Positions 1-28,250 of a stretch of 28,899 nt of DNA are shown piece after piece (position 1 is the stretch's first letter; each line of letters begins with the position of its first letter). The notes under the pieces are model-generated. The model was not told where the DNA came from and ran no database searches. It saw nothing but the letters and a program-made list of their open reading frames with translations. This DNA comes from a virus. The position numbers and the translations under genes are program-made. Location: positions 1-28,899 of the IMG/VR virus record IMGVR_UViG_3300031841_004006; one strand, given 5' to 3'.

Positions 1-707
1 GGTTTGTTTTTTAAATTAGGATCACCAAAATATTTTACTGTACCATCAGGTCCAGTTACTTTATGAGTTTTACCTTTTCGTTCATTTGATTTTGTAACTA
101 CATAACCTCCTTTTCCATACATGTATCCTCCATCCATGTAACTATTTACATACTCATCAGCAGCTTCTTTAGACATATGAGATTCTGCTCTAGCTCTTAA
201 AACTTCTTTTGGTATCTTACCTCCATACGCATACATATCTCCACCATACCCCATACTAGAATTATCCATCATTCCTCCATATGCGTTTTTAGATCTTTCT
301 AACGCTTCATCTGTAGGAGCACCTTTACTACCAGGACTTCTCATTGTCTCTCCTGAACCAGCTGCTATTCTTTTTCTTTTTGCGTGTATGTTTGCCCACA
401 ATCCTCCGTTTTTATATTCTGTAGTATCACCGTGGTACGCACCAGGCATCATAGAACCATCTGGCATTTGATGCATTGGCATTTGATCTCCCATCATTCC
501 AGGAGCTTGTGGCTCATTATATCCTAAAGAATTTAATGTGTCCATTGCATCTCTAGCCATTTGTTCACGTTCCATTTCTTGCTGTTCTTTTAAAGCTTGT
601 AGCTCTCTATTCATAGCTGTTTTAGAAGCATTGTCATCTGGACGATTCCCATACTTTTTGATTATTGCTTTTGCTTGATCTGCAAACGATGTAACTCTTT
701 TAGCCAT
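1..707 (-). CDS. GG-motif phage protein, 3' end outside window (partial)
   Basis: The first 235 codons of a gene whose 3' end lies beyond position 1. The ATG at 705-707 follows the upstream gene's TAA after two bases, so the two are translationally linked. Residues 1-75 are charged and Q/E-rich. Around residues 99-132 is a basic module beginning NGGLWANIHAKRKRI and ending GSKGAPT, which I remember as a recurrent stretch in unrelated environmental phage proteins of unknown role. After it come several glycine-pair motifs: NAYGGMM, GYGGDM, YAYGGKI, YMDGGYM and YGKGGYV. The last two patterns also occur in the neighbour at 710-3415 and in the lysin at 24101-25822. No enzyme domain is visible in this part. 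Position after the muzzle gene suggests a capsid cargo or ejected protein; this is inference. The reading frame is certain, the function is not. Confidence 0.75.
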   Translation of the reverse strand, partial: MAKRVTSFADQAKAIIKKYGNRPDDNASKTAMNRELQALKEQQEMEREQMARDAMDTLNSLGYNEPQAPGMMGDQMPMHQMPDGSMMPGAYHGDTTEYKNGGLWANIHAKRKRIAAGSGETMRSPGSKGAPTDEALERSKNAYGGMMDNSSMGYGGDMYAYGGKIPKEVLRARAESHMSKEAADEYVNSYMDGGYMYGKGGYVVTKSNERKGKTHKVTGPDGTVKYFGDPNLKNK

Positions 708-709
708 AA

Positions 710-3415
710 TTACTTCTTTTTAGAATTTATGTAAGGTATTCTATCTGAGAATATGTAAGATTCGCCATCGGGTGTATCCCATCTTATTTCACCATCCTCT
801 ACTTCATTGTTTGTATCTCCTAGTGGAATTCCGCCCGTTTCATGTCTATTGCCATTGTACTCTGTTAAGTCTCCTCCTGCTTGATACATTTTATCCATTT
901 TACCACCATAGGCAAAACCAGAACTATATCGTCCACCTTCAGCTTCAATTTTTCTTGTTTTTGTAAACATGTCGCCTAACGGATTAATGAATTTTCTTTC
1001 ACCTGTAGTTAGATTTGTTCGAGTAGATCTTCCTGCATTTCTTTGAGGATTGTATACTCTTTCCATGTATCCTTGTAAATATTCTGGATCATAGTTTACA
1101 TGTGACTGTACCCCAGGTGTATTTACTGGTAAAGGTTGAGGAGCCATCATTGGCATTTGTTTTAATGGATCTCCATAGTAATCCATATCTCCACCATAAG
1201 CCATTTGAATGTTGGGTATAATACCCGTGCTTTCTGATTCTGGAATATACATTTCAGGTGCAGGAGGTGTTTTTCGAGGAGTAATCATAACTGGAGGTAA
1301 CTCTTGAGTTTGAAATCCAGGATACTTAGACATATCAACGTATTTTCTTTTTTCTTTATACGCATCAAATTCTGATTCAATCTGAGATAATTTCTCTGGA
1401 TTTATATCAGGTGATAGTTCTTTGTATTTTTTCTTGAATTCAAAATGATGATGAGGTGCAGTTCCTTTACTTCCTACTTTCTTTCTTTTTGCTGCAGATG
1501 TTTCATCTAAGTACTTTACACCAAAATCACTCATCCATTTTTTACCTTGATCAGTATTTACCCAATCTATAAATCCTTTACTATCTTCTTTAGCAGATAC
1601 GTCAAAAGCTTTACCTACATTATGCTTAGATCCTTTTTTGTATACTTTATCTTTTTTTCCTCTAAGCATTGAAGTTAATACAGCTGGATCTCCCTGATAA
1701 CCATAATCTCCAATTGAACTTAAAGCCGTAAATGCTTCTTTTCCTAAGTAAGGTTTACTTACACCTCTAAGCTTCATGCCTAATATGAAATCTCTGATTC
1801 GTCCTGGATTTTCATTCATAGGTCCACCATTTGCATATAGATTGCCTCCATATGCACCATAGTTAAATTGTGTTGTATCTGTAGGCATTGGTATATCTTT
1901 TCCTTTGTCTTTGTATAATCCATAGAAGTCATCTCCTGCACCTGCCCATCCTAAAGCAAGATTGCTTGCTAGACCCATAGCTTTGTCACCTGCTGTTTTT
2001 CTTGGATCTGAAACTACTTCCATTTTCCCTGCCATTGGATCAGCTATATACGATAAAGCGTCACCAGCTGGTCCTCCCATTTGTTCTCCTGCTTTTTTAG
2101 CTCCTTTTCCAATAGCAGCAAATCCTTGTACAGCTTGACCCCAACCAGGAATTGCTCCCATTGCACTAACTACTGCATCTTTACCTGCTTCATACTGACT
2201 CATTGTTTTTCGTTGTTCTTCAGTAAGATCAGTTCTTTGTTGTTCAGGTAGTGCACTTGACGCTATATTTGCAGCCATCGCACCATATCCTAATGCATCG
2301 CTTCCTGACATTTTATTTTCGTCTGTGTTACCATAATCGTCAGCATAATAACTCATATCAAGTTCTGGTGCTTCACCATAATTTGTGGCAAGTGTACCAG
2401 TTGGTGTTTGATAATAATTTGTAGGAATAGCAGTTAGTTCGCCACCGTATGCATTCCACTTAGATGCATTGCGTGCAAAGTTTGCTTGTTTTCTTGTAGC
2501 AGGTGAATAAGTTCCTTCTTTAGCACTAAGAACTTTAGATGCAAATTCTTGAACTCCCATTCCTGCCGCATTAGCTTTAGCTGTAAACTTACCACGATTC
2601 TCAGGCTTAATACGTATCTTTCCACCATATGCAAATGGTGATTGATCCATTAGTACTTTATCAGCCCATTGTTGTTTTGGTGCAGTCATTTCATCTACTG
2701 TTGTTGCACCTTGAACTTCTTCAGCTGCTTCAATATCATATCTTTCAGGATCTCCAGCAACTGCACCTCTTTGTTCTGCAACACCTTGTTCCCAAGGAAT
2801 AGTAATCCTACCTTCATCAAAAGCTTTCTTATATGCATCATATGCTATTTGACCGCTTTGTCTGTAATCAAACATGCCAGGTCTTCCAGGTACTGGAAAT
2901 TGCATTTCGAATGTTCTTCTACCTGTTCGATCTATATCTACTTTTTCAGGTGACCATTCAAAGCTACCATATGTTGTTGATGCATGCTGTGGACCTAATA
3001 ATTGTTGTCTTAGTGGCGTACTCAAACCTTCTTTAGCTCCTGCTAATCCTATTTGAAAATCATTAAGGTTTTTTGTTAGTGGTGCAACATTTTCACTCAT
3101 CCATTCTAAAGACGTGTAGTAATCTTCAGGATCATATCCTTCTCTTTCAGCAAAGCTTGCAAATTCTTCAGGTGTTAGTTCTGTGTCTCTTTTTCCTACC
3201 TGATAATACGGAAGCCCTGTGTTTTCAATACCTGCCTGCTCATACAATCCCAAGTTCTGTATTTCTTGCCCTCTTTTGATTATATCCATTCTTCTTTGAT
3301 ATTCATCATAATCAAAGTCTTCTGGTGCTGCTATTTGAGCAGTTCTATAATCAGTTATACTATCTGGTTGATAAGCACTTAAGGAGAGTATTCTATATTT
3401 ATCGTTCTCAGGCAT
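710..3415 (-). CDS. Cargo-type virion protein with embedded M15-like peptidase and GG motifs
   Basis: A 901-residue protein encoded just after the muzzle gene, where crAss-like phages keep large capsid cargo proteins. Residues about 540-665 look like an M15-type zinc peptidase (D-Ala-D-Ala carboxypeptidase / L-Ala-D-Glu endopeptidase group): GSKHNVGKAFDV supplies H598 and D605, and APHHHFEF supplies H655, H657 and E659. Such enzymes cut peptidoglycan cross-bridges. Around it lie at least five A-Y-G-G motifs (Ala at 262, 322, 521, 739, 835) and NGG/AGG variants. Residues 858-896 hold a compact C-terminal block: HETGGIPLG, then VEDGEI, then YIFSDRIPY. The N-terminal 250 residues are charged, with no recognised fold. 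The region at 440-500 is Ala/Gly-rich and could be amphipathic. A candidate Bacteroidota-type promoter lies directly upstream. Peptidase call fairly sure; ejected-cargo role inferred from position. Confidence 0.85.
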   Translation of the reverse strand: MPENDKYRILSLSAYQPDSITDYRTAQIAAPEDFDYDEYQRRMDIIKRGQEIQNLGLYEQAGIENTGLPYYQVGKRDTELTPEEFASFAEREGYDPEDYYTSLEWMSENVAPLTKNLNDFQIGLAGAKEGLSTPLRQQLLGPQHASTTYGSFEWSPEKVDIDRTGRRTFEMQFPVPGRPGMFDYRQSGQIAYDAYKKAFDEGRITIPWEQGVAEQRGAVAGDPERYDIEAAEEVQGATTVDEMTAPKQQWADKVLMDQSPFAYGGKIRIKPENRGKFTAKANAAGMGVQEFASKVLSAKEGTYSPATRKQANFARNASKWNAYGGELTAIPTNYYQTPTGTLATNYGEAPELDMSYYADDYGNTDENKMSGSDALGYGAMAANIASSALPEQQRTDLTEEQRKTMSQYEAGKDAVVSAMGAIPGWGQAVQGFAAIGKGAKKAGEQMGGPAGDALSYIADPMAGKMEVVSDPRKTAGDKAMGLASNLALGWAGAGDDFYGLYKDKGKDIPMPTDTTQFNYGAYGGNLYANGGPMNENPGRIRDFILGMKLRGVSKPYLGKEAFTALSSIGDYGYQGDPAVLTSMLRGKKDKVYKKGSKHNVGKAFDVSAKEDSKGFIDWVNTDQGKKWMSDFGVKYLDETSAAKRKKVGSKGTAPHHHFEFKKKYKELSPDINPEKLSQIESEFDAYKEKRKYVDMSKYPGFQTQELPPVMITPRKTPPAPEMYIPESESTGIIPNIQMAYGGDMDYYGDPLKQMPMMAPQPLPVNTPGVQSHVNYDPEYLQGYMERVYNPQRNAGRSTRTNLTTGERKFINPLGDMFTKTRKIEAEGGRYSSGFAYGGKMDKMYQAGGDLTEYNGNRHETGGIPLGDTNNEVEDGEIRWDTPDGESYIFSDRIPYINSKKK

Positions 3416-3474: not shown

Positions 3475-6400
3475 TTACATATTAGCTGGTCTAAAACTTA
3501 CTTCAATATCGTGTAATACGAGTCTTCTATTATTCGCATTATTCTCAAACTCAAGCTCTAAGAATATGTACGAATCTCTCATTCTTGGCTTTGGAGATGC
3601 AGCTGGGTCTGTTGCATCTCTAGGTATAGTTGATCTGTACTTACGCATTCTTCGTATTACATTTGTTCCAAGCGTAAGTGGTATTATTCCAGTATCTTGA
3701 TAGTCATTGTAGAATCGCATTTGTTTTAATGCTTCATTTGGTGCATCAATGTCATCTATTGATATCTCTGCATTGTACTCTATGTTATCGAATACTTTGA
3801 TAATGTCAGCTCCAGGTGCAAGTATTAAAGTTATTTTCGAGTTGTAATAGTCATTATAGAACTTTCCATAATCATCTACATCGTGTTCAAATACTTCACC
3901 GTCGTTTGTGAATGAGTTTACAGATAATAATCTCCTGCCCGTGTGCAGGTAGATATTTGGTTTGTAATCATGAAAGGATTCAAATGCATTCATCATTTCA
4001 TTGTACGATAGAGTAAATCCATTTAGGAATGTATTGTTTCCAAATTTATCTACAATAGGTTGGAGATTAGGATCAGTTGATGGAACTAATGGAGGATCTG
4101 GAGCAGTAAATGCTGTAGTTACTCTGTAGTATATTCCACCAAAAAATATGATATCTCCTACTTCATATGTTTTATTGGCTATGGTTGAATCATAGATCTT
4201 ATAGTTCAGGAATGTCATTAGCACTCTATTGTGCCTTCTATCGTACATTCCATGTACGCCTAGATTCTTAAGTGTAACATCATTCTCTTCAAGACTCCCG
4301 TCTATTTTACCAAAGAATGCAGATAGTCCTTTTATGTCACTTATTGGTTGCATTCCTTCAGAAAGTCTGAACATTTTCTTTAATCTATCATCGTAGTGGT
4401 AAATACTTCCGCCAGACGTAACTACTGAATGTTGATGTATACTTCCAGTCTCCGTAGTCATGTAGCTGTAATCACTTATTACTTCACCTGTACCCAATAC
4501 GATTTCTACTCCTGATTCGGATACCTGAGTTACACGATCGTTTATTGCTGCAACACCTACAGCTGAATCCTGGTAGAAGAAAACATTACTTCTTAGGTTG
4601 ACTATTTTATTGATTTGACCATGAATTCCTTCTACAGGTAGTTCATTTAACGGCAAGAATATTTTCCAGTTATCTATTAGCTCACCATCTACTTTTGCGT
4701 TAGATACCTTAATAGTAAATCTTTGTTCTTCTGAAAGATTGACTAATGCGTCTTTTGCAAAGAATTGAGTCTTTACGTTATTTTCTTGATTGTAAGCATA
4801 GAGTATCTTATAATCTTCAAATTGATATGCTCCCATATCAGGCGTAACATTATCTCTATCTGTAGAAAAATGCTTCCCAAATCGTAATTCAGTATTGATG
4901 CTACTTTCACACGGATACATAAGACCAACTGCAAGTTTTGAATTAGCAGGACCATCATATGGATTTACTTGACTCCAGTATTGAGTTATGTATTCTTCAT
5001 CGTAATAGGTTACGAACATGTCTCCACCAAATACTTTGAAGGTAAAATTAGAACCAAGGCTTGATACTTCAGCTGTTGCTTGGAAATGACCTGTAGATAT
5101 GTATACAGATTTACTTCTATCTATGTACGCATCCCCACCATATTGCTTTAGTAGAAATCTGTTATAAGATGCTTCTTTAAACTTTAGAAAGTTATCACTT
5201 CTTCCTGCAGTAGTACCACCTGTTAGATTAAGAAATTCTTGTTTTCCGTCAATTGGAAGACTTGCTCCAGCTGTATCATAGAACATTCCTGATACAGAAC
5301 CTGTTGGATATTGTGCAGCATCCCACCAATTATCAGGAATAAGACCTGTACTACTACCATCAGTATTTAATACTAATAATTGTTTAGTGTTACCCATCCC
5401 CAAAGGAACATTAGTTCCAGAACCAGATTTTCTTGAATATGATGCATTGATCAGAAAGTTCTGACCATTTACTCTACCTCCAGCATTATCAAATGCGGGA
5501 TTAGTTGTTCCAATTGATTGAGCTGCAGTCATTTGTATTTCTGCGTCAATTAAGAATTTTTGATAACCGTCTGGATTATTTGTTGGATATACAGCACTAT
5601 TTATTAATGTAGCTGGGGCATATTCTCTCATCTTATACCATGCTCCCATACTTTTATTACCAAAATCATCATAGAATACTTCTGCGTATCCATTATAATA
5701 ACCCGTAGTTTGTATGTAATCTCTTCTTCTAAATTTATAGTTTGAAGCTAATCTAAATGGACCAAGTGGAGAACAGAATGTAGCAAGTGATCTACTATGA
5801 CTGTCATCGCTTAAAGGTGTTCCTGCTGAATGCCAATCTGTAAATCCAGGTCTATCCATTAATGTAATACAAGGTTCACCACTACCGTCTATATCAATAT
5901 TGGTTGATTTAACATCTTGACTGTATTGTGCATTAAATACACTTGTTAATGAATTACCATTGTCTTCATGATTAAAATGCATTACCAATCCAGTACCCAA
6001 TCTTGTTTTATCTTCCTCTTCTCTTTGAACTCGTACAATAGAGAACCCAGATATCTTATCAGCAATGCTTGATATGTCTACTGAAAACTCTATCCCTAAT
6101 GAAAATAGATTAGATACTCCCGAATTAAAGTTTATAAGCTTATAAGTATTTGTTATCCCTGATGTAGCATCATCTGTAGTATCAAATATTTCAGGGAACT
6201 TAATATCACCTATCCATTTTACAAAGCTTGGATTACCTTTGAGATCATAGAACGTAATTCCAAATCTATATACTTCACCACGAGCGTATCCTCTTAAGAC
6301 TCCATTTATTTTTGCAGAAGCCATGTTTTTAATTTCTCCCCCTCTTGGATACTCTACATTACTTCCATCTAAGTTTTTATCTCCTAATAATAATGGAGAA

Positions 6401-8103
6401 TCTGATGCTAGATATCTATCTACTTTAGTAAATGGTCTGTATACAGGTGTAGGATTAGCATATAGGTCATTGCCTGAATAACCTTGGGTAACAAATTTGT
6501 AGCTTACATTTGGACCTGAACCACCAAGATAACTTTGACCTGGAGCATATTTATATTGATCTGCAGTTGCCCAATCAGCATTTACATCTGGGTCTTGTTG
6601 ATTGTAAGGATTTATTGCATCATGTTCTTCTGGAATTGTATCCCAGTTTCCAGTATTGTATGAATTAGATGTACCATCGCTATTATAAATATCAAATGAT
6701 GTACCTCCTGCAACTTTACTTCGATAAGCCCTTGCATCAAAATCAATATCAAATATGGGTTCTTTGATATTTGCCGCAACTAATCTATCATCTTTGGATG
6801 TTAATGTTTTGGCTACTAATGGATTGGTTAATGCGTTGTATTCTACTGTTGTTATTGGAAGATCGTCTTCTGATCCATCATGTATTACAGTAAGTGTTCC
6901 ATTACTTGGTACAAATTCTTCTTTGAACTTATATACTACTGGATTGTCTCTTGTGCTCCATAGTATGTAGTAATGCTCAATTACATCGTAGTCAGTATCA
7001 ATTCCTTCGATCGTATATGTAACTGGTCCACCAGATGCATTGTTTATACTATCTGCTCCTATAAATGCTGTACCACCACCTGCTCCGTGATGAGTTGTCG
7101 AAGGTGAATCATTTTTCGTAAGCGTAACTAATGTTGATGCAGGTGAGAATATTGTAGTATTTCCTTGGGTTTGATTGATAAGTCTGTATGCATATTGTAC
7201 AGTAGAACCTGCAGGAATAGATCCTGTTCCAACACCCAATGATTGTATTACAGGTTTTGATAAACTTACATCTGATACTATGTCCAGGTTTCCAGGAGGT
7301 AGTATCCATAAGTTATCATCGAATATATTTATCGATCTAAGCGGATTGTAATTATCAGTGAAATATACACGTCCTATCTTATCTGTTTCATACCGTGTAA
7401 TTGGTTCTTCTATACGATGATGAGTGGATAATCTTAGCTGATTGTTATAGATGAGGTGTGTAGATGGTACAAGTAATCCACCTACTACGCCTTCAACTGC
7501 ATTTGAATACTCATTGTATTTAAGCTTCCATATCTGATCTCCCGTACTTGATGTAGGATTTTCTGCAGTTTCAGATGTTGTAAATACAACTATCCATTGA
7601 TCCAGATATCCCATTCCACATATCTTAAGATTGCTTTGAGCTTCAGCTACAGTTGTCAATGTACAGTCTGTACCTACTACAGTTACAGTGAGTGGTGAAT
7701 TTAATCCGATGAAGTATACAAAGTTATCATCTTCTATCAGCTTAAGTGTATTTGCTGTAATCAATGCTTGTATAGTAGCATTAGCATTCAGGAATGCAAA
7801 TAGGTCTGCATTTGTTAGAATATTATCTGAAGCTGTATACGATATTGGTGTTCCAAGAACATCTATTGTTTCACTACCAGCTACTGCATCTACATCAGTT
7901 CGTCTTAGCTTATACGATCTGGATGTACTAGGAATCTTAAATGTCAGTTTGTTACCTCTTTCATTTTCAAGAGCTCCTGTAGAAGAACCGTCTTCAGTAA
8001 CTACTTTAAAGTTATGTGCTTCAAAGTAAGAAGTTTGTTTGTATTTCAGTTTAGACGTGTCCTGATCAATACCACCTATATATGTTTGTTTTGCTTTAGG
8101 CAT
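3475..8103 (-). CDS. crAss-like muzzle / tail stabilisation protein
   Basis: At 1542 residues this is the largest gene in the window. It matches the crAss-like stabilisation protein that forms the 'muzzle' closing the short tail (crAss001 gp44 type). Diagnostic features are the N-terminal GGIDQDTSKLKY followed by STGALENERGNKL, and a region near residues 230-275 with RIGRVYFTDNYNPLR-like sequence (here KIGRVYFTDNYNPLRSINIF), typical of this family. The rest is beta-rich with many Asn, Asp, Gly and Tyr. Around residues 1310-1345 is a small insert, YEVGDIIFFGGIYYRV, resembling a CBM5/12 carbohydrate-binding domain, which recurs in the spike at 13195-14637. Its start overlaps the preceding ring-protein stop as TAATG, so the two are co-translated. 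It should sit at the distal end of the tail and gate DNA release. Family assignment is confident from memory of the conserved motifs. Confidence 0.88.
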   Translation of the reverse strand: MPKAKQTYIGGIDQDTSKLKYKQTSYFEAHNFKVVTEDGSSTGALENERGNKLTFKIPSTSRSYKLRRTDVDAVAGSETIDVLGTPISYTASDNILTNADLFAFLNANATIQALITANTLKLIEDDNFVYFIGLNSPLTVTVVGTDCTLTTVAEAQSNLKICGMGYLDQWIVVFTTSETAENPTSSTGDQIWKLKYNEYSNAVEGVVGGLLVPSTHLIYNNQLRLSTHHRIEEPITRYETDKIGRVYFTDNYNPLRSINIFDDNLWILPPGNLDIVSDVSLSKPVIQSLGVGTGSIPAGSTVQYAYRLINQTQGNTTIFSPASTLVTLTKNDSPSTTHHGAGGGTAFIGADSINNASGGPVTYTIEGIDTDYDVIEHYYILWSTRDNPVVYKFKEEFVPSNGTLTVIHDGSEDDLPITTVEYNALTNPLVAKTLTSKDDRLVAANIKEPIFDIDFDARAYRSKVAGGTSFDIYNSDGTSNSYNTGNWDTIPEEHDAINPYNQQDPDVNADWATADQYKYAPGQSYLGGSGPNVSYKFVTQGYSGNDLYANPTPVYRPFTKVDRYLASDSPLLLGDKNLDGSNVEYPRGGEIKNMASAKINGVLRGYARGEVYRFGITFYDLKGNPSFVKWIGDIKFPEIFDTTDDATSGITNTYKLINFNSGVSNLFSLGIEFSVDISSIADKISGFSIVRVQREEEDKTRLGTGLVMHFNHEDNGNSLTSVFNAQYSQDVKSTNIDIDGSGEPCITLMDRPGFTDWHSAGTPLSDDSHSRSLATFCSPLGPFRLASNYKFRRRDYIQTTGYYNGYAEVFYDDFGNKSMGAWYKMREYAPATLINSAVYPTNNPDGYQKFLIDAEIQMTAAQSIGTTNPAFDNAGGRVNGQNFLINASYSRKSGSGTNVPLGMGNTKQLLVLNTDGSSTGLIPDNWWDAAQYPTGSVSGMFYDTAGASLPIDGKQEFLNLTGGTTAGRSDNFLKFKEASYNRFLLKQYGGDAYIDRSKSVYISTGHFQATAEVSSLGSNFTFKVFGGDMFVTYYDEEYITQYWSQVNPYDGPANSKLAVGLMYPCESSINTELRFGKHFSTDRDNVTPDMGAYQFEDYKILYAYNQENNVKTQFFAKDALVNLSEEQRFTIKVSNAKVDGELIDNWKIFLPLNELPVEGIHGQINKIVNLRSNVFFYQDSAVGVAAINDRVTQVSESGVEIVLGTGEVISDYSYMTTETGSIHQHSVVTSGGSIYHYDDRLKKMFRLSEGMQPISDIKGLSAFFGKIDGSLEENDVTLKNLGVHGMYDRRHNRVLMTFLNYKIYDSTIANKTYEVGDIIFFGGIYYRVTTAFTAPDPPLVPSTDPNLQPIVDKFGNNTFLNGFTLSYNEMMNAFESFHDYKPNIYLHTGRRLLSVNSFTNDGEVFEHDVDDYGKFYNDYYNSKITLILAPGADIIKVFDNIEYNAEISIDDIDAPNEALKQMRFYNDYQDTGIIPLTLGTNVIRRMRKYRSTIPRDATDPAASPKPRMRDSYIFLELEFENNANNRRLVLHDIEVSFRPANM

Positions 8104-9011
8104 TATCTTGCATTATATATTCTACGTTCTTCACCTTCATTAAGGCTTCTAAATCCACTTCTATGTTCTTCAATGTTTGGTATAGTTCTAAGCCATTGGT
8201 TCTTTAATGCTTCCATTTGATCAATGGATGGAATTCTAGCTTTGATATTTGCAGATGCACAATAGAACAACCATTCCTGTTCTAGCTTATCAGCTATTGC
8301 TCCAGGCAATCTTCCTTGTATTGAAAGCTTTAAGGATATTCTATGTGCAAGATAATTCTTGCATGCTTCCTGATATCTTGTATCTGCAGGTATAAGCGGT
8401 AAGCCGTTTTCTGCAGTAGGTACTGCCCAGTATGCCATTTCTACCTGACCTTCTTTAAATGATGTGAAGATCTTACCTCCATTTACTGTGTAGCTCAATT
8501 CCTTGTTATAATCTATTGTTTGCACTGATGGTTGATTCGCACCAAATGCTGTATTAGATGTAGGATTAGGATTGAAGTTGAAAAACGGATTACAATGTTT
8601 ATTGTCATCTATTTTTGTTGATGGAGAAGCATCAATTACTTTATCTACACATCCACTACTAGTTGTGCAGTTGACCGTGTCTGGAGAATTCGAGATGTAC
8701 AATCCCGCATGAAAATTATCTGTATTATGCAGCATTGGTATCTTAGAACAGAACTCTCTTGTTTGTACAATTACATGTAGGTCACAAGGAAGATCTCCTC
8801 TGTGATTTTTTATTACAATAGGATCAGGATTACCAAGTGCAGTAGAACCATCTGTTACTTTTGGCATATATGCTCGTGGAGCTCCTATGAGATCTAATGC
8901 ATCTGCAACCCATTCGATTGCATCATTCCAATCAAAATCTTCTTCAAATCCATAATCCCTGTATACTCTTTCTATAATCCCTTCTATGGGTACATATCTA
9001 CCATTTAACAT
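8103..9011 (-). CDS. crAss-like neck/tail ring protein (302 aa)
   Basis: One of the most conserved structural proteins of crAss-like phages, related to P22 gp4/T7 gp11-like tail tubular or ring proteins that stack between portal and muzzle. Visible hallmarks are RDYGFEEDFDWNDAIEWV near the N-terminus, IVIKNHRGDLPCDL at about 65-80, IFTSFKEGQVEMAYWAVPT at about 180-200, and a helical C-terminus with DQMEALKNQWLRTIPN at about 265-280. The middle (about 105-165) is a Cys/Asn-rich insertion that looks variable. It is followed directly by the muzzle gene (TAATG overlap), fitting a ring that contacts the muzzle. I am sure it belongs to the crAss-like ring/tubular set, but not which of rings R1-R4 it corresponds to. 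Confidence 0.85.
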   Translation of the reverse strand: MLNGRYVPIEGIIERVYRDYGFEEDFDWNDAIEWVADALDLIGAPRAYMPKVTDGSTALGNPDPIVIKNHRGDLPCDLHVIVQTREFCSKIPMLHNTDNFHAGLYISNSPDTVNCTTSSGCVDKVIDASPSTKIDDNKHCNPFFNFNPNPTSNTAFGANQPSVQTIDYNKELSYTVNGGKIFTSFKEGQVEMAYWAVPTAENGLPLIPADTRYQEACKNYLAHRISLKLSIQGRLPGAIADKLEQEWLFYCASANIKARIPSIDQMEALKNQWLRTIPNIEEHRSGFRSLNEGEERRIYNAR

Positions 9012-11138: not shown

Positions 11139-11606
11139 TTAGTCTTCCCAATTTAAATATTTAGTTCTTCCATTTATTTTACACGCCTTCAATATGTTTT
11201 TTCTATTTCCTTCTTCTTTGTATGATACATGTATCCAGTTTGGATTATCATCAGTACCAAACTCCCAGATTAGCTGATCAAAATCCAGATTGTCCTTAAT
11301 ATAGTGAAACATTTGTGCATTAGTCTTATGACCATAGGTATCATCCAAGTCCATAGCCGCACCATTGTTTGCCATATGTTGTGACGATTTTGATCCACCA
11401 ATACGTGTGTTAAGTTCTTCACTTCTAAAGCAACTATTAATTTTTATAGGTCCGCCAACCCATTCTCTTAATGGCTCAAACAAATTGTTAGCCAAAAGAA
11501 TGATCCTATCCATTTGACTTCGGTTAGGATCATTCTTTATGTCATTTCTTATAGCCGTTTGGCTATATGTAACTTCTTTATAACTTACGTGGTTACTAAC
11601 CTTCAT
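11139..11606 (-). CDS. Endolysin, peptidase M15A family
   Basis: A 155-residue, single-domain peptidase of the M15A type, a zinc enzyme cutting D-Ala-containing peptide bonds of peptidoglycan. The signature is clear: NSCFRSEELNTRIGG at about 55-70, then SKSSQHMANNGAAMDLD with the zinc ligands H77 and D86, and NWIHVSY with H126 near the C-terminus. It has no signal peptide, so access to the wall should need a holin, and a holin candidate gene ends inside its first codons (11-base overlap). The downstream neighbour is the spanin candidate. Length is normal for compact phage M15A endolysins. This is the soluble lysis enzyme; a separate M15-like domain in the 901-residue cargo protein is a different branch. 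Confidence 0.88.
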   Translation of the reverse strand: MKVSNHVSYKEVTYSQTAIRNDIKNDPNRSQMDRIILLANNLFEPLREWVGGPIKINSCFRSEELNTRIGGSKSSQHMANNGAAMDLDDTYGHKTNAQMFHYIKDNLDFDQLIWEFGTDDNPNWIHVSYKEEGNRKNILKACKINGRTKYLNWED

Positions 11607-15940: not shown

Positions 15941-16513
15941 TTAACAATTTACACCCAAAAGCTCATATGTTTTATTGAGTATATCACATACTTGTTTTGT
16001 AGTAAGACAATTAATCAAATCTAAGATTGCACAAGGAGAAGATTCTATATCTTCAGTTGTTACTCCCGTAGTTGCTGAAATTGTCAATACAATTGAAGGA
16101 TAACTCCAAAAGTAAAGTATACTTCCATCTAACACCATGTCTACTAATCCTGCTACTTTTTGTGTGATAAAATCACTATTGCTTAGTAGTCCATTATAAG
16201 CTTCCAATGCTCGTGCCTCACCTGTTGTTCCATTCAATGCAATATTGAATGCATTTCCGCCAATTGTACCTTCAAAAGTAGAAGGTGTTGTTCCACTTGC
16301 GAATGTTATCTTGAATGCGTTTTCAAGTGTTGTTGTAAAAGGAGAATAATCACATAACAACCTTAAGAACGCTGTTACCTGATTATTTGTTTCAATAACA
16401 CATTCGCTGTTTTTACCATACAGACTTACTGCTGTATTTAATGTTTCCGCATAGGTTGACTGCAGACATTGAATCGCTCTAATATGATTATCTCTACATT
16501 CTACAGTTGTCAT
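15941..16513 (-). CDS. Cys-containing fibre-module protein, unknown
   Basis: 190 residues, starting four bases inside the preceding gene (ATGA overlap). The ends are helical and Cys-bearing (VECRDNHIRAIQCLQS; CAILDLINCLTTKQVCDILN; final C), while the middle (about 65-145) is beta-rich with a repeated-looking 'TFEGTIGGNAFNIALNGTTG' strand pair. Eight Cys residues are unusual for a protein assembled in the cytoplasm. I do not recognise the family. It sits between a collagen-like protein and the tail fibre, so it may connect fibres to the virion. Confidence 0.65.
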   Translation of the reverse strand: MTTVECRDNHIRAIQCLQSTYAETLNTAVSLYGKNSECVIETNNQVTAFLRLLCDYSPFTTTLENAFKITFASGTTPSTFEGTIGGNAFNIALNGTTGEARALEAYNGLLSNSDFITQKVAGLVDMVLDGSILYFWSYPSIVLTISATTGVTTEDIESSPCAILDLINCLTTKQVCDILNKTYELLGVNC

Positions 16514-17025
16514 CCTACTTTATATATTTGCCATTGGATTTTTCGTGAAGTTAATGCTCCGCCTCCACTACTTCCAATGTCTCTTACTTTTAACTCTATT
16601 AGTTGTCCAGTATTTACTGTTCCTTTCCAGTTGATACTTAATGGGATTGTAAGTATCTCCACCACATCTGTAGATACTGAAAAAGTTATTGGGGTAACTG
16701 TATCTACTAATACACTATTTACAAATATCTGAATTTCTCCGTTAGCATCCGAGCCCATTTGCGTAAGAATATCTGCAATCATCATATATTCTCCATTTGA
16801 TCCCGTAAGCGTATGGCTTCCACTAGGAAGTGTTGTTGCAACCCCAGGCCATGCATAATCTATATCAGTACTAATATAATGTTCTAATGTAAGTGTACCA
16901 TCAGCACCATCAGCACCGTCTGCCCCATCCGCACCTGCAGGTCCAGCTGGTCCCGTAGCTCCAACAGGAATCGTAATAGGTATATTACATTCGTTTGAAC
17001 ATGTACATCCGCAATTGCAACTCAT
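16510..17025 (-). CDS. Collagen-like fibre protein A with Cys-rich leader
   Basis: 171 residues. The first 18 residues, [18 protein letters not shown], are Cys-rich and nearly shared with the gene at 17399-17746. Residues about 23-43 are Gly-X-Y collagen repeats (GATGPAGPAGADGADGADG). The remaining 125 residues are a beta-rich head ending in QWQIYKVG, which differs completely from the paralogue. Collagen repeats in phages form trimeric stalks on the virion surface, so this is probably a trimeric fibre or decoration with a globular tip. The Cys leader may crosslink or bind metal; that is inference. The start is preceded by AATAGATAATT and no Shine-Dalgarno. Confidence 0.75.
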   Translation of the reverse strand: MSCNCGCTCSNECNIPITIPVGATGPAGPAGADGADGADGADGTLTLEHYISTDIDYAWPGVATTLPSGSHTLTGSNGEYMMIADILTQMGSDANGEIQIFVNSVLVDTVTPITFSVSTDVVEILTIPLSINWKGTVNTGQLIELKVRDIGSSGGGALTSRKIQWQIYKVG

Positions 17026-17398: not shown

Positions 17399-17746
17399 TT
17401 AAAATTTTGTAAATCCGTAAAGTTTTTCGTGTATTGCTACTATTCGTCCAATACTTGCATCTTTTCCTGCTGGTCCTTGAAGTCCTTGAACACCTGCAGG
17501 TCCTTGTGGACCAGTTGCTCCATCTACACCGTCAACACCGTCAGTTCCAGCTGGGCCTTGTGGACCTTGAATTCCTTGCAATCCATTTGTACCATTTGTA
17601 CCTGCTGGACCTTGCGGTCCTGTTGCACCCGTTGCACCCGTGGGACCTGCTGGTCCAGTCGGGCCTGCTGGTCCTGCTGGACCAACTGGTACAGTAATTG
17701 GAATATTGCATTCATTTGAACAGCTATTTCCGCAACTACAACTCAT
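17399..17746 (-). CDS. Collagen-like fibre protein B with Cys-rich leader
   Basis: 115 residues. It begins [18 protein letters not shown], almost the same as paralogue A, then carries about 70 residues of Gly-X-Y repeats (residues 22-93, e.g. [13 protein letters not shown] and [10 protein letters not shown]), far longer than in A. The C-terminus is only about 20 residues ([18 protein letters not shown]), too short for a globular head. The start codon is two bases after the preceding stop. It could be a stalk whose tip is supplied by the next gene, the 117-residue beta protein. Repeat number in such genes changes easily by recombination. Confidence 0.78.
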
Positions 17747-21341: not shown

Positions 21342-21361
21342 TAATTATTCGATAATAATTA
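21342..21361. other. A/T-only hairpin at end of capsid gene
   Basis: A perfect 8-base inverted repeat, TAATTATT and AATAATTA, around a CGAT loop. It begins in the gap and its right arm covers the TAA stop of the major capsid gene. The stem has no G or C and no T tract follows on the minus strand, so it is a poor terminator; it may slow RNA decay at the 3' end of the capsid gene or be chance in A/T-rich DNA. Confidence 0.4.
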
Positions 21362-22840
21362 GGTTAAGATGTTAGGAATGTACTCAGCCATTCTCATTGG
21401 GTTCTTAACCATGATTCCACCGATAAACGCCTTATGAACTTCATATCCATCTACAGAGCTTGCAGCCATTGTAGGTGAAGTTTGTTGATCATATGGAGAG
21501 AATGGATCACGTAGTCCAGGAATATATCTGAAAATTTCAGAATCTCCTTTCATACCTACTTGCTTGATGTTCGCATCTCCATCAGCAGTACCGAAATCCA
21601 TAATTGTATATCGACGAGATTCAGCAAGACCACCATCTGGGTGATAAATCTTGTTACGAACTGGATCATCGTATTGTGGAATGTGCATCAACTCAACAGT
21701 AATACCGTTAACAGTTTTGTACTCCAAGAACTGTCCTTTGTATCCCATTTTGTTTTTGCCACTGTGAGTAATTCGACCTTGATCGAAGTTTGGAGTGTAG
21801 TTAGATGCTTTTTCTTCCGCAGCTTTGTGGAACTGGAACATTCCATACTCTCCTGTACCAAGAACGAATCTACGCTTATCTTCAGGAAGTTTACCAACAG
21901 AAAGACCAAGAAGTGTTTCAGTCAAGTAATCTAAGTTGAAGTTGTTGTAGAAGAACTTGTTAGAAGGAGCGATTTGCTCACGAAGTCCTGCACCTGATCG
22001 GATTTCATATCCTGAATCTCCAAGGTTACCGTAAGTACCATCAGCTTTCTTGTTAGATGTTCCGAACATCAACAATTTAGCGATCTCTCTACGACACTGT
22101 ACCATAAAGTCATAATCAAGCTTCTTGATCCATGCAGTTTGAACTTTACCACTTTGATCTTTCCAAGAGAAAGCCATTGGCTTGTTCTTACCTTTTCGAA
22201 TCATGTTTCCAGGAACAGTATACTGCTTACGGATCATACTCATTACATTCTGCATTCTGAATGGAGAAGTGTGGTGAGTAAGACCACCTCTTTTAGAAAG
22301 AGTTTGTTCTACAAGCGAGTATTCTTTTGACCATCGTGTTCCAACTGCTAGATCTTGAGTAGGAACAGAAAGGAAGCTATCTCCAGTAACAAGCTCAACC
22401 TGATACATCCAGTTGTCAGTTCCTGCGTTTACAGGATCAGATACAATTCGTAGTTTGTAAAGGTCTACTTTATTACCAACAATTACATCGGTAGCTTCAA
22501 AGTATCTTTCAGGAAATTCGAGAACGAATCTTGTGAAGTTAATACCTGGAGCTGCTGGCAATGCATTCTTGTCGAAGTCAGCATATGCTGCGATTAGAGG
22601 AATATTTTTTTCGTCTGCTCCCTGTAAGAACCACTCATAAGGTCTATCGTCATCAATGTATTCCATAGGAAATTGATTCATAAAACTAATAAGATCGTCT
22701 CCAAGGTTAACTTTGTAAATATTCTCAATCAAATTTGAAACCAGTTGTGGTTCCAAAGCAAAAAGAGAACCAAGATGATTTTCAGTCGTTAGACCTGTCC
22801 AATCCTTCGGTTCATATTTTTGAAGAGGTGAAATTAACAT
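21359..22840 (-). CDS. Major capsid protein, crAss-like HK97 fold
   Basis: 493 residues. The sequence carries the recognised blocks of crAss-like major capsid proteins: DDRPYEWFLQGADEKNIPL (about 63-81), GTRWSKEYSLVEQTL and PFRMQNVMSMIRKQYTVPGNMI (about 165-210), then CRREIAKLLMFGTSNKKADGTYGNLG, RFVLGTGEYGMFQFHKAAEEKA (about 305-325), DDPVRNKIYHPDGGLAE (about 380-395), YIPGLRDPFSPYD (about 437-450), and KAFIGGIMVKNPMRMAEYIPN at the C-terminus. It follows the scaffold gene after 27 bases, and the 297-residue crAss-like protein follows it, the usual order. No separate protease gene is visible. The leader CAATAACCA has no Shine-Dalgarno. Strongest identification in the window. Confidence 0.93.
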   Translation of the reverse strand: MLISPLQKYEPKDWTGLTTENHLGSLFALEPQLVSNLIENIYKVNLGDDLISFMNQFPMEYIDDDRPYEWFLQGADEKNIPLIAAYADFDKNALPAAPGINFTRFVLEFPERYFEATDVIVGNKVDLYKLRIVSDPVNAGTDNWMYQVELVTGDSFLSVPTQDLAVGTRWSKEYSLVEQTLSKRGGLTHHTSPFRMQNVMSMIRKQYTVPGNMIRKGKNKPMAFSWKDQSGKVQTAWIKKLDYDFMVQCRREIAKLLMFGTSNKKADGTYGNLGDSGYEIRSGAGLREQIAPSNKFFYNNFNLDYLTETLLGLSVGKLPEDKRRFVLGTGEYGMFQFHKAAEEKASNYTPNFDQGRITHSGKNKMGYKGQFLEYKTVNGITVELMHIPQYDDPVRNKIYHPDGGLAESRRYTIMDFGTADGDANIKQVGMKGDSEIFRYIPGLRDPFSPYDQQTSPTMAASSVDGYEVHKAFIGGIMVKNPMRMAEYIPNILT

Positions 22841-24100: not shown

Positions 24101-25822
24101 TTAGTTCTTTATAGCTTTTATTTTTTTTCGTGATACATAGGGTTCAAATCGCATAGGATTATTTTCTTCAGGTTGAGGTAAACTCAAATCAATTATTTCT
24201 CCCATGTCAGAATTGTAGGGTACGTTATCTCCAGATGCATTTAAATATGCATTAGACATAAAGTAATCTGTTGCTCTTTGTCCTACTGAGCTAATGTCTT
24301 TTTTAGGTTTTCCAGAATTAGAACCACTCAATGGTCCACCATATGCTTTTTGAAATGCGGGTGCTATATTTTTATAATTCTTTGCAAAATATCTAGCATC
24401 TTCTTCTGTTTCAAATCTCATTTCTTCGTTTGCTATAGGACCTGTCATTTCTAATCTACCGTTTACATCTTGTATATTAGGAACAGCATAATTACCATAA
24501 CTACCCATATAGTGTGTACCACGTTCTCCTGAAGGAAATATATAAGGATTGTCCGTAGGACTTACCATTCTTTTAGCAGCAGGATTGCCATGCATTTCTT
24601 CATAAGCAAATCTTGCTTTCATCATACCATCTGCATTATAATCATTATTGATTTCTTCAGCTTTAGGTCCACCTTCTGGAGATAATTTTAGTGGTCCACC
24701 TTTAGCCATAGAATACATATTCAGATCACCTTCCATAAAACCTGCATGATGTTTTCTATCCTGATACGCTTTTCCTACATATCTTTGAGGAGCCCGTGTT
24801 TTTATTAAACCTCCATATGCCTTTTCTCTTTCTTGATAGAGCTCATCTCTATAATTTTCTATTGTAGTTTTTTCAAAATCTTCTAAAGACATTGGTGGAG
24901 TTGCACCTCCAGGCATTCTTTGCATTGTATCTTCACCTACTACAACTTTTTTAGCTTTTTTAGCTTTTTTAGATTTATTATCATCATAATCTAGTTTTTT
25001 AAGTTGCATTTTTAGATTTGCAGCATATGTTGGAGATGTAGCATAACCAGCTTCAGAAAGTATGTTAGCTAATTCTAAATCTGATTTATCTTTTCCATAA
25101 CCTTTCTTTCTATATCTTCCTTTGGCTTTTTTAGTAAAAGCAACTCTTGCTTTAAATCCTTCTAATGGTGATGAATAACCTTCCCATCCAGCTTTTTCTG
25201 AAGTAAGTTTTCCATCTCTTACTTCATGAGTACCCATAGAAAAATCATCACCTTTTATGCCAAAATAAGCATAATATTTTTTAGCTGATTTGGATCTTCC
25301 TCCACCTGATTCTACAGCCCATTGAGCAGCAATAACTCTTGCTTCTGCATCTGTTTCAGCTCCTGCCGCAAGTGCCATATGGTAAGCATCACGTAAAGTT
25401 TTTGGTGGTTTAGTTACATCAAAATTTTCAGGAACTTCAGATAAAACTCCTGCCCCAACTCCACCTTCAGTAGAAACTTTAATTTTACCTTTTTTACCCC
25501 AGCTAGGTATAAACATGTCTCCTTCTAAGTAGTCTCTTTTAGAATATTTTTTTATTGATTTATCATCCCAAATTTCTGGGTCTGTAAACCAACCCATATC
25601 TGCATAAGTTTTGTTTTTACCTTTTTTTATTTTTGGTATACTAGCAGAAAGTGGTGCTGGTGTTGTAGGCATTCCTGTATTAAGAGTTCCCCCAAGATCA
25701 TATTGCCTAGGTTCTTCTTTATTTGCGTTTTCAATCTGAGCAATAATATCTCCGTAATAACCATTATAGCCTAAATTCTTAAGCTTTTTAATTATTTCTA
25801 ATTTTTCAGAAGGTCTAAGCAT
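24101..25822 (-). CDS. Virion lysin: GH73-type glucosaminidase with GG motifs
   Basis: 573 residues, overlapping the portal gene by 8 bases. Residues about 145-285 form a glucosaminidase domain of the GH73/FlgJ type, which cleaves glycan strands of peptidoglycan: AAQWAVESGGGRS with catalytic-type E171, YYAYFGIKGDDFS, EGYSSPLEGFKARV, and AGYATSPTYAANL. The N-terminus starts with a short helix (SEKLEIIKKLKNLGY) and YDLGGTL. A-Y/K-G-G motifs follow the enzyme (Ala at 335, 373, 493) as in the proteins at 710-3415 and 1-707. Residues about 420-490 form a module with GERGTHYMGSYGNYAVPNIQ and FETEEDARYFAKNYKNI that I recall from internal or lysin proteins of many phages. Position between portal and scaffold suggests it is packaged in the virion. 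It likely opens the wall at infection rather than at lysis. The enzyme call is strong. Confidence 0.84.
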   Translation of the reverse strand: MLRPSEKLEIIKKLKNLGYNGYYGDIIAQIENANKEEPRQYDLGGTLNTGMPTTPAPLSASIPKIKKGKNKTYADMGWFTDPEIWDDKSIKKYSKRDYLEGDMFIPSWGKKGKIKVSTEGGVGAGVLSEVPENFDVTKPPKTLRDAYHMALAAGAETDAEARVIAAQWAVESGGGRSKSAKKYYAYFGIKGDDFSMGTHEVRDGKLTSEKAGWEGYSSPLEGFKARVAFTKKAKGRYRKKGYGKDKSDLELANILSEAGYATSPTYAANLKMQLKKLDYDDNKSKKAKKAKKVVVGEDTMQRMPGGATPPMSLEDFEKTTIENYRDELYQEREKAYGGLIKTRAPQRYVGKAYQDRKHHAGFMEGDLNMYSMAKGGPLKLSPEGGPKAEEINNDYNADGMMKARFAYEEMHGNPAAKRMVSPTDNPYIFPSGERGTHYMGSYGNYAVPNIQDVNGRLEMTGPIANEEMRFETEEDARYFAKNYKNIAPAFQKAYGGPLSGSNSGKPKKDISSVGQRATDYFMSNAYLNASGDNVPYNSDMGEIIDLSLPQPEENNPMRFEPYVSRKKIKAIKN

Positions 25823-28250
25823 TTTTGGTATTATTTTGACTTAATGCTTTTTCTTTTAACCTAAGATCTTTTTCCTTTATCTCCTTATCATTTTGCATTT
25901 TTTGCTGTTTAAGGTTATAATCATTATCGATCTTTTGTTGCATCTGCATTAACTTTTGCAATTCAATATCATCAGGAATTCTATTGTTATTCTGATCTCT
26001 ATCAAATTCCTTATCTGCAGAATTAATATAAGCTACTTCCAGTTTGGTATTATTATCCATCATCTTCAGCTCTTTCTCATGGATCTGTCTGTCCTCCCTA
26101 TCAGCAGTTGCAATTTCAAGTGCTCTCTCTTGAGCTTGTTGTTGCATCTGTTGCATCTGTTGTTCATGCTGCTGCTGTTGTTGAACTTGCTGTTGTTGTT
26201 GCTCAAGTTGTTCTTGTTCACCTTGTTCGATCTTTCTTCGAATAGATGTTATAGAATCACTGTAATAGATATCCATCAGCTGACTCCACTTCAATTTATC
26301 ATTCTGTATACCAGCGTGTGCAAGTTGTTTCAATGATTGTTCAAGTGCTGCATCATTAGTGCTATTCGACATAAACAATCCATATTCAGATTCATTGAAC
26401 TGCTTACCATCAACTTCAAACATTACAGTTGTCAGATCATCTGTAACATACTGCAACTTCTTATTTTTATTCCGCCATGCAAACTTTGCAGTTTCAAGCA
26501 ACGTAGCCATTGCTCTAAGTTTTGTATTATCGTGTGCAGAGAACCATTTTTCAGTAATATGACTTGACTGTACTACAGCTCTTTCTACATTACCTACCAA
26601 TTCACTTGAACTTACCTGACCTTGTCGTTGCTTTGTAACACCTGCTATTTCACCTAGCTGATTTTCCAAATAACTCAACATTCCAATGTGTTGTTGAATA
26701 TAGCTTCCTAGCTCCAGGTCAAGAACTTGATGACCAGAAGCACCAGTCATATTTCCTCTCAGTTTTCCTGTTGCAGCACCTTTATTACCAACTTTAAAGT
26801 AATCTACAGGGGCCCATCCTAATACTTCAGCATAGTACAACCACTTCTCTACTTCCCATTCATCAGGTACAAGTGATAGATCCAATTGTGCTATTTTACC
26901 TTTAGACTTAGCAAATGCAAGTTCAGTTCTATACATAAACACATTGTACAAATACTGATAAGGCTTCATTCGATCCATTAGTGATTTTACACTAGAATCA
27001 TTAGTAGCATATAGCGTTCCTACATATCCAGGTGCACAATAACTAGGATTAGTCATCTTTCTGAACTGAATAGGTCGAGGTTGCATCTTCACATAAATAT
27101 CTTCACCGATCTTAGTTCCTTCCCACCATTCGTTCACCCATATCCATTCTATTTCTTCTCCTTTATCTACGTTAGGTTTGTACTTCTCATCTACTATCTC
27201 CTCTTGTGCATCTCCATCTGCATCATAATACTTTAACTTCCCAACTTTCCTTCTGGATTTCCAAACAGTTCGTACAACCTTAATGTTTCCTTCTTCGTCA
27301 TAGCTTCCACCAAAATATCTTGTAGCACTATCGTTTACTTCGATCAATCCACCATTTCCATTCTGTCGTACAAAGTCCCCAATATCAAATACAGGATTGT
27401 ATCCTTTATGTGCAAGTACACTATTAGCTGCAGTGTTCAATTCACTTCCAGCTTCAATATCATCTATCTGTTTATCCGTAAGATACTCGTAGTAAAAATC
27501 TATAACCTTACCTACGGGCTCATATGAATACTCAACAATAATATCCGAATCTTCAATGTGATGACTATCACCTGACCTTATCGTAAATAAGTTCAATGGA
27601 TTTACTCTCCTTAAAATAGGTTCTCCAGATATAATATCTGCACAATAGATCTCTTCTCCTGCTATTAACGCATCAGTAAAACCTTGATTGAATTTCAATT
27701 TCAAATCTTGCTCATTGTACAGATACGTAAGTATTCTTGTAGCATTCAGCTCTCTAAGGTCCTGATATTCGTAATTCAAATACTTGTTTAATCTTCTAAG
27801 CTCGTTCTGCAGATCTTGCTCATTCATTGCATCACCCTGTATCTGCTGCATAAGAAGATTCATTATTCTTTCCTTCTTATAATTCTCTTTTTCAGAGATT
27901 GCACTATCATTTACAGACCTTACTCTCCATTCAAATTTCCTTTTGAACTCTTCGCCAATAAGTAGATCAATTTTAGGATTTGCAATAGGATAGTTCTGCA
28001 TCTTAGCAGGGAATGTAGCATTCTGTAGGTTCAACGGATTGCATACTGACTGCATATCTCTTTGGTCAAGTATGTCATTGTACAGATCGTAGTTTATCTT
28101 TTTGTTGTATTGAGACTGCCTTATTCGATTATCTTTGAACACTGTAAAGTTTTCTGCAGCGTCCATGCAGTCCTTCATCCACTTCTCATTTTTTTGTGAA
28201 GTTGCCTTTTTCTGGCTTGGAAAGAAAGTCACATTGGCGGATCCTTTCAT
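25815..28250 (-). CDS. Portal protein, crAss-like
   Basis: 811 residues, directly after TerL. Blocks typical of crAss-like portals: a start rich in Lys/Asp, YDLYNDILDQRDMQSVCNPL at about 50-70, PKIDLLIGEEFKRKFEWRV at about 93-112, YLYNEQDLKLKFNQGFTDALIAGEE at about 175-200, and REMTNPSYCAPGYVGTLY-like sequence (here FRKMTNPSYCAPG). A helical wing/stem domain follows, with SYLENQLGEIAGVTKQRQGQVS. Residues about 675-710 are glutamine-rich (QQQQQVQQQQQHEQQMQQM) and lead into a long C-terminal coiled coil. At residues 750-763 is a calcium-loop-like motif, DRDQNNNRIPDDIE. It forms the dodecameric DNA gate at one capsid vertex. A candidate promoter element precedes it. Very confident. Confidence 0.92.
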   Translation of the reverse strand: MKGSANVTFFPSQKKATSQKNEKWMKDCMDAAENFTVFKDNRIRQSQYNKKINYDLYNDILDQRDMQSVCNPLNLQNATFPAKMQNYPIANPKIDLLIGEEFKRKFEWRVRSVNDSAISEKENYKKERIMNLLMQQIQGDAMNEQDLQNELRRLNKYLNYEYQDLRELNATRILTYLYNEQDLKLKFNQGFTDALIAGEEIYCADIISGEPILRRVNPLNLFTIRSGDSHHIEDSDIIVEYSYEPVGKVIDFYYEYLTDKQIDDIEAGSELNTAANSVLAHKGYNPVFDIGDFVRQNGNGGLIEVNDSATRYFGGSYDEEGNIKVVRTVWKSRRKVGKLKYYDADGDAQEEIVDEKYKPNVDKGEEIEWIWVNEWWEGTKIGEDIYVKMQPRPIQFRKMTNPSYCAPGYVGTLYATNDSSVKSLMDRMKPYQYLYNVFMYRTELAFAKSKGKIAQLDLSLVPDEWEVEKWLYYAEVLGWAPVDYFKVGNKGAATGKLRGNMTGASGHQVLDLELGSYIQQHIGMLSYLENQLGEIAGVTKQRQGQVSSSELVGNVERAVVQSSHITEKWFSAHDNTKLRAMATLLETAKFAWRNKNKKLQYVTDDLTTVMFEVDGKQFNESEYGLFMSNSTNDAALEQSLKQLAHAGIQNDKLKWSQLMDIYYSDSITSIRRKIEQGEQEQLEQQQQQVQQQQQHEQQMQQMQQQAQERALEIATADREDRQIHEKELKMMDNNTKLEVAYINSADKEFDRDQNNNRIPDDIELQKLMQMQQKIDNDYNLKQQKMQNDKEIKEKDLRLKEKALSQNNTKNA

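Follow-up and report, generated by a model that had tools for sequence, protein, structure and literature searches.

Why does a short glycine motif recur, at irregular spacing, in three genes of a single phage fragment? The fragment, referred to below as the window, is the whole of the 28,899-nucleotide IMG/VR record IMGVR_UViG_3300031841_004006, which is part of a Crassvirales phage. The motif, x-A-[Y/D/E/N/K]-G-G-x-[L/I/M/V] or AYGG for short, lies in a 901-amino-acid (aa) protein, in the partial gene next to it and in a lysin. We propose, with a probability of about 0.72, that AYGG is a joint between modules of mosaic proteins inside the virions of Crassvirales. It is at the motif that modules begin and end when relatives swap, lose, insert or reshuffle them; the main carrier is the gene at the position of cargo protein 1 (C1; gp45 in crAss001), and the carriers are probably proteins that travel in the particle and are injected. 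The motif is the place where cargo proteins get cut and re-joined in evolution, and not an address label. Many gut viromes are dominated by Crassvirales, and the motif bears on how the cargo of these phages is built, stored and ejected.

Counted as [AM][YFWHKNEDQ]GG.[LIMVFWY], the motif occurs 13 times in the three carriers (1,709 aa), against a mean of 0.29 and a maximum of 3 in 2,000 composition-keeping shuffles, none of which reached 13; the remaining 7,762 aa of the window hold no copy (0.48 expected). Such a shuffled control had been proposed in an earlier note on this DNA, whose observations withstood both the control and a recount: the copies listed at Ala 262, 322, 521, 739 and 835 of the 901-aa protein and at Ala 335, 373 and 493 of the lysin are in place, the partial gene carries the motif repeatedly (Ala 142, Ala 160 and degenerate copies), and capsid, portal, ring and muzzle are free of it, the muzzle having two near-misses that lack the Ala (QYGG 989 and VFGG 1026). 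The same note had called the three proteins otherwise unrelated and had set aside shared descent as an explanation. The former statement is right for the lysin, which has no detectable similarity to either of the other two, and wrong for these two, which are consecutive halves of one C1 family; the latter has to be given up, since two of the three carriers are one split C1 and both the modules and their borders are inherited and exchanged.

On the evidence of sequence profiles, the 901-aa protein and its neighbour are predicted to be the two halves of C1, broken inside the portal-bound domain. The neighbour is completed to 557 aa at 12709-14382 of L006 (relatives carry labels of this kind), a near-identical second contig with the same genes and few substitutions, which we regard as a strain variant; in both contigs the order is muzzle, 901 aa, 557 aa, 988 aa and a very large gene, so that the split gene stands at the C1 position. 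For residues 261-328 of the 901-aa protein there are matching proteins in 58 named crassvirus records, crAss001 gp45 being one of them. Residues 847-893 correspond to gp45 441-487 (own profile, E 1e-21) and residues 4-50 of the next gene to gp45 500-546, and our profiles find gp45 along with both halves at E ~1e-17 to 1e-21. Residues 6-52 of the 557-aa protein align with positions 79-125 of PF25725 (crAss_CARG1) at 22 bits, under the 27-bit cut-off; a Pfam search returned no match for the 901-aa protein, and searches of PDB sequences with both halves and with residues 533-735 gave no believable matches. Two segments of gp45 were resolved by electron cryo-microscopy (cryo-EM), 214-245 and 425-552, the latter forming a domain on the portal wing, and the protein was found in virions by both cryo-EM and mass spectrometry (PMC10172136). 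The counterpart pair of phi14:2, gp081 and gp080, are both virion proteins detected by tandem mass spectrometry, and by analogy the halves in the window would be virion proteins as well.

The break itself consists of TAA, two bases and ATG (window 707-712) and is common to L006, L017 and L018. Among the sampled loci, the C1 halves lie on consecutive genes in 14 (in L052 the second half alone was recognised) and in one gene in 10, and the portal-bound domain is thus divided over two genes in many environmental crassviruses. An assembly frameshift was rejected as the cause, given the identical two-base gap in three relatives and the 14 split loci. A single origin was rejected likewise: the muzzle tree requires at least 3 changes, a count to be read with the reservation that C1 may move independently of the muzzle. 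As a separate observation, the basic peptide GGLWANIHAKRKRIAAGSGETMRSPGSKGAPT (291-407), which lies inside the cargo protein here, is a separate small open reading frame in marine T7-like phages (phrog_16028), where it adjoins scaffold and capsid genes; phrog_20603 and other weak matches were not used.

To map the distribution of the motif, 36 loci were surveyed with the muzzle as anchor. The gene immediately downstream of the muzzle holds 55 copies in 27.6 thousand amino acids (kaa) against 3.7 after shuffling (1.99 per 1,000 aa), and the second holds 23 in 19.2 kaa against 2.6 (1.20 per 1,000 aa). The third is at about the shuffle level (3 copies in 22.7 kaa, 1.3 shuffled), later genes contain 1 in 25.3 kaa (1.2 shuffled), the muzzle proteins 1 (1.8 shuffled) and everything else 1 in 84 kaa (4.5 shuffled; 0.01 per 1,000 aa). 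The other multi-copy class is the gene after the portal, the lysin position, in the relatives of the window. Five copies, AYGG and AFGG included, are present in crAss001 gp45. The view of the earlier note that packaged or ejected proteins are the ones marked by the motif is corroborated by the main carrier, C1, having been detected in virions of crAss001 and phi14:2, and its expectation that non-virion genes would be poorer in the motif is borne out by the early halves of three genomes, with 1 copy in 34.7 kaa.

Evidence for a joint comes from comparing the proteins of relatives. Between ANGG 528 and AYGG 739 of the 901-aa protein lies a 200-aa module that no other member of the compared set has, and the same motif-bounded slot, with conserved flanks, holds a lysozyme-like module in L017 and L018 (weak PF00959 matches). 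A resemblance of the slot to M15 peptidases, seen by eye (SKHNVGKAFDVS...PHHHFEF), had no profile support and was rejected. The IKP box, a mobile module between AYGG 262 and AYGG 322, is missing in L017 and L018; L053 carries it as an insertion at the point where L058 has AYGG, flanked on either side by a copy of the motif. L067 and L068 share 1,149 aa at 99% identity; this homology begins at YA[QN]GG, before which one of the two has ~100 extra residues. At the DNA level, L051 and L058 are unrelated before, and identical from exactly, the KAMGG codons onward. When clean homology breaks were counted over all pairs, with the expectation taken from uniform placement, 58 of 213 at the C1 position and 24 of 52 at the lysin position fell within 7 residues of [AMQ]xGG, against 13.9 and 2.7 expected; for other genes the figure was 57 of 2,999 (19.5 expected). 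An earlier set of nine proteins had given 24 of 83 breaks within 5 residues of the motif, against 4.2 expected (p ~2e-4). A further short recurring module, GG-MIKRADGSYS..., also has GG at its start in several of the very large proteins at the C1 position (L051, L053, L055, L058, L024 and L025).

Modules are also permuted in the lysin. The window has them in the order A-B-C and L064 in the order B-A-C, with A-x-G-G at every join; in L009 an additional stretch, containing an HExxH motif, stands ahead of module C. Module A follows an xxGG in each of six proteins, where its position ranges from 46 to 956. BLAST of the lysin against named phages returned no match. The first ~45 residues, a candidate virion-anchoring segment, are conserved in L063-L068, L070, L009 and the window lysin, the remainder being replaced.

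The IKP box can be followed well beyond the window, its profile finding 344 relatives in IMG/VR, some of them on contigs of ~410 kilobases. Of 74 distinct complete boxes of 54 residues, collected from the 80 best loci, 69 have a left neighbour and 53 a right neighbour; GG is found within 9 residues of the left edge in 58 of the former and within 9 residues of the right edge in 50 of the latter, against 11.8% of random 10-aa windows of the same proteins. The box may open a protein, close it or lie in its middle; it is found on either side of the C1 portal domain, next to phage lysozyme or peptidoglycan-binding domains, and in tandem in DAC15.

It can be hypothesised that every joint forms a short and flexible Gly-Gly hinge. 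Each module would then fold and unfold on its own during the storage of C1 along capsid and tail, and the joints would act as hinges when C1 is threaded into the host by way of the portal and the tail barrel. The ~12-15 conserved bases would also constitute a shared patch of DNA, where in-frame recombination would leave a working protein. Published accounts describe C1 as extending from the capsid to the tail and as partly unfolded in order to be ejected (PMC10172136, PMC10136315). In gp45, segment 214-245 begins four residues after SAYGG (207-210; GG 209-210) and segment 425-552 begins at the Ala of AFGG (425-428; GG 427-428), the sequence between the two not being resolved (PMC10172136). The flexible hinges among the suggestions of the earlier note agree with these borders, and their use in threading is what we infer. 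The comparisons may reflect either recombination at the motif or the survival of those joins only that leave a hinge.

Several points weigh against this proposal. The AFGG of gp45 heads an ordered domain, so that some copies need not be flexible, and AlphaFold models from three-row alignments reached a mean predicted local distance difference test score of only 28.6 for the 901-aa protein and 33.5 for the lysin and were discarded. The location of the lysin in the virion is putative. Synonymous variation at the motif means that DNA matching alone does not explain its conservation. Many breaks fall at a weaker xGG or at no motif at all; moreover, break ends are not mutually independent and a conserved motif may catch the ends of alignments, so the ratios given above are guides and not strict tests. 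The DNA-level junctions are less open to the latter concern.

Among the alternatives, the one that survives best is a recombination signal in the DNA only, seeding exchanges irrespective of any protein function, and we consider it unlikely. The sharp DNA junctions at the motif and a skew in its glycine codons would be expected of such a signal: the first Gly prefers GGT in the C1 and lysin genes, and the second is GGC in 13 of 59 copies, which are not independent of one another, against a background of 4%. Third bases vary, however, the hydrophobic position uses unrelated codons and there is no strict DNA consensus; the A, G, G and hydrophobic positions are kept while synonymous codons change, which suggests a constraint at the level of the protein.

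Sites of the form GG-X are cut by adenain-type proteases, and the motif resembles known viral processing sites of this kind. Maturation cleavage by a viral protease, releasing separate peptides from C1 and the lysin, would be in keeping with breaks at module borders, as in polyproteins, and with the distance between the tail-bound and portal-bound pieces of gp45. It is nonetheless very unlikely: no responsible protease has been identified, and gp45 425-552, which contains AFGG 425-428, TQGG 434 and NEGG 447, was modelled as one compact domain (PMC10172136), so that these sites are uncut in the resolved copies. We give no more credence to pure descent, with the motif as a leftover of tandem duplication in Gly-rich sequence that has no role; modules do bring their own edges along, and the IKP box of DAC15 is in tandem, but composition-keeping shuffles yield almost no motif, its residues (A, an aromatic or charged residue, G, G and a hydrophobic one) are kept despite codon variation and its flanks share no common sequence. 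Least likely of all is the suggestion of the earlier note that the motif serves to target proteins to the capsid or as a binding site for portal or DNA: its carriers adjoin portal and muzzle and AFGG heads the portal-bound segment of gp45, but C2 (gp46) and the virion RNA polymerase proteins gp47, gp49 and gp50 are packaged in crAss001 (PMC10172136) with almost no copies, so that it is not a general packaging tag, and a single binding site is at odds with up to seven copies in one protein, at positions that track module borders and among modules that differ between phages.

If AYGG is a module joint, it divides C1 and the lysin into units, which would assist the annotation of unnamed enzyme and effector modules, the prediction of module borders for expression and tests of whether tail threading needs Gly-Gly joints. 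More tentatively, and on balance doubtfully, Gly-Gly joints could be a general code for module shuffling in the injected virion proteins of Bacteroidota phages, at once a self-propagating in-frame patch and an unfolding hinge; with such a code, very different phages could put together new combinations of cell-wall enzymes and small effectors.

The material consists of metagenome contigs, with few cultured relatives, and the portal of the window (Table 1) is only ~40% identical to those of named crassviruses, which makes this phage a distant environmental member. Elsewhere in the window, a 155-aa protein (11139-11606) resembles an M15-type cell-wall peptidase by eye and is possibly the true lysis enzyme. 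Collagen-like Gly-Pro-Ala repeats follow a common N-terminus in 17399-17746 and 16510-17025, the latter having a different domain after the repeats.

Table 1. Coordinates of genes, modules and motif copies in the window.
Feature	Position	Strand	Basis or remark
Terminase, end part	28292-28897		
Portal	25815-28250		phrog_6547, E 2e-142
Lysin, 573 aa, between portal and scaffold-position gene	24101-25822	-	Glucosaminidase PF01832, E 1e-19
Capsid	21359-22840		named from position and size
Ring protein 1	8103-9011		PF24228
Muzzle	3475-8103		PF25731, E 5e-142
901-aa protein, predicted N-terminal part of split C1	710-3415	-	directly downstream of muzzle; segments in common with gp45-type C1 (264-328 and 847-893)
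Partial gene, predicted C-terminal part of split C1	3-707	-	complete as 557 aa in L006
AYGG, residues 262-265	2621..2632	-	left edge of IKP box
IKP box, mobile module, residues 266-321	2453..2620	-	
AYGG, residues 322-325	2441..2452	-	
AYGG, residues 521-524	1844..1855	-	L017/L018 homology stops ~9 residues after
ANGG, residues 528-531	1823..1834	-	swapped slot, left edge
Swapped slot, residues 532-738	1202..1822	-	lysozyme-like module instead in L017, L018
AYGG, residues 739-742	1190..1201	-	swapped slot, right edge
AYGG, residues 835-838	902..913	-	
C1 portal-bound domain, first half, residues 847-893	737..877	-	own profile
C1 portal-bound domain, second half, residues 4-52 of next gene	552..698	-	own profile and sub-threshold Pfam
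GGLWANIHAKRKR basic peptide module, residues 101-139 of 557-aa gene	291..407	-	phrog_16028, 64 bits
AYGG, residues 142-145 (557-aa gene)	273..284	-	
AYGG, residues 160-163 (557-aa gene)	219..230	-	
Conserved N-terminal segment of lysin-position proteins, ending at LGG	25688..25822	-	own profile
Glucosaminidase domain	24995..25378	-	replaced by GH19/endolysin-like domain in L064, L009
AYGG, residues 335-338 (lysin)	24809..24820	-	start of module A
Module A (LIKTRAPQRYVG...NMY)	24710..24808	-	
AKGG, residues 373-376 (lysin)	24695..24706	-	start of module B
Module B (PLKLSPEGG...APAFQ)	24350..24694	-	
AYGG, residues 493-496 (lysin)	24335..24346	-	start of module C
Module C (PLSGSN...PYVS)	24131..24334	-	

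The closest known system is gp45 of crAss001 (PF25725), which resembles the C1 of the window in post-muzzle gene order, both halves of the portal domain (predicted for the window), the IKP box and AYGG/AFGG. It is a single protein, whereas the window C1 is split in two inside the portal-bound domain and carries other modules, and the published account of C1 does not describe the motif as a joint (PMC10172136). No description of the motif was found in the literature searched, although one in journals not covered remains possible. C1 itself is already known, as are mosaic ejection proteins with travelling peptidoglycan hydrolases (PMC8954989); what is new is a short conserved joint from which module borders can be predicted in C1, in the portal-side lysin and in other phages, together with a portal-bound domain that has repeatedly been split over two genes. 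The podovirus ejection proteins (T7 gp14/gp15/gp16 and P22 gp7/gp16/gp20) are likewise internal and ejected before the DNA, and their peptidoglycan hydrolases move between proteins (PMC8954989). Ejection of C1 ahead of the DNA and an envelope channel have been proposed (PMC10172136), and the C1 and lysin classes have putative exchangeable hydrolase domains of their own (glucosaminidase, weak lysozyme, GH19, DUF2272 and tail-lysozyme matches). For the podovirus proteins, however, no conserved short joint motif has been described.

Two more distant systems invite comparison. In the T-even adhesin gp38, recombination occurs between glycine motifs. These conserved motifs alternate with variable segments (PMC6851490, PMC12529663) and form a polyglycine type II sandwich at the tip of the fibre, whereas AYGG copies belong to internal proteins and lie far apart, the GG joints of C1 being isolated, tens to hundreds of residues from one another, and not densely set as in gp38. 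In polymorphic toxins, such as CdiA with its VENN peptide, a short conserved peptide marks the joint to a variable module (PMC3482391, PMC5371414); there, one junction precedes one C-terminal toxin, whereas the motif proteins have many joints and several internal modules that permute, as in the orders A-B-C and B-A-C. The gp38 motifs and the VENN of CdiA are analogies of the AYGG joint, and not its relatives.

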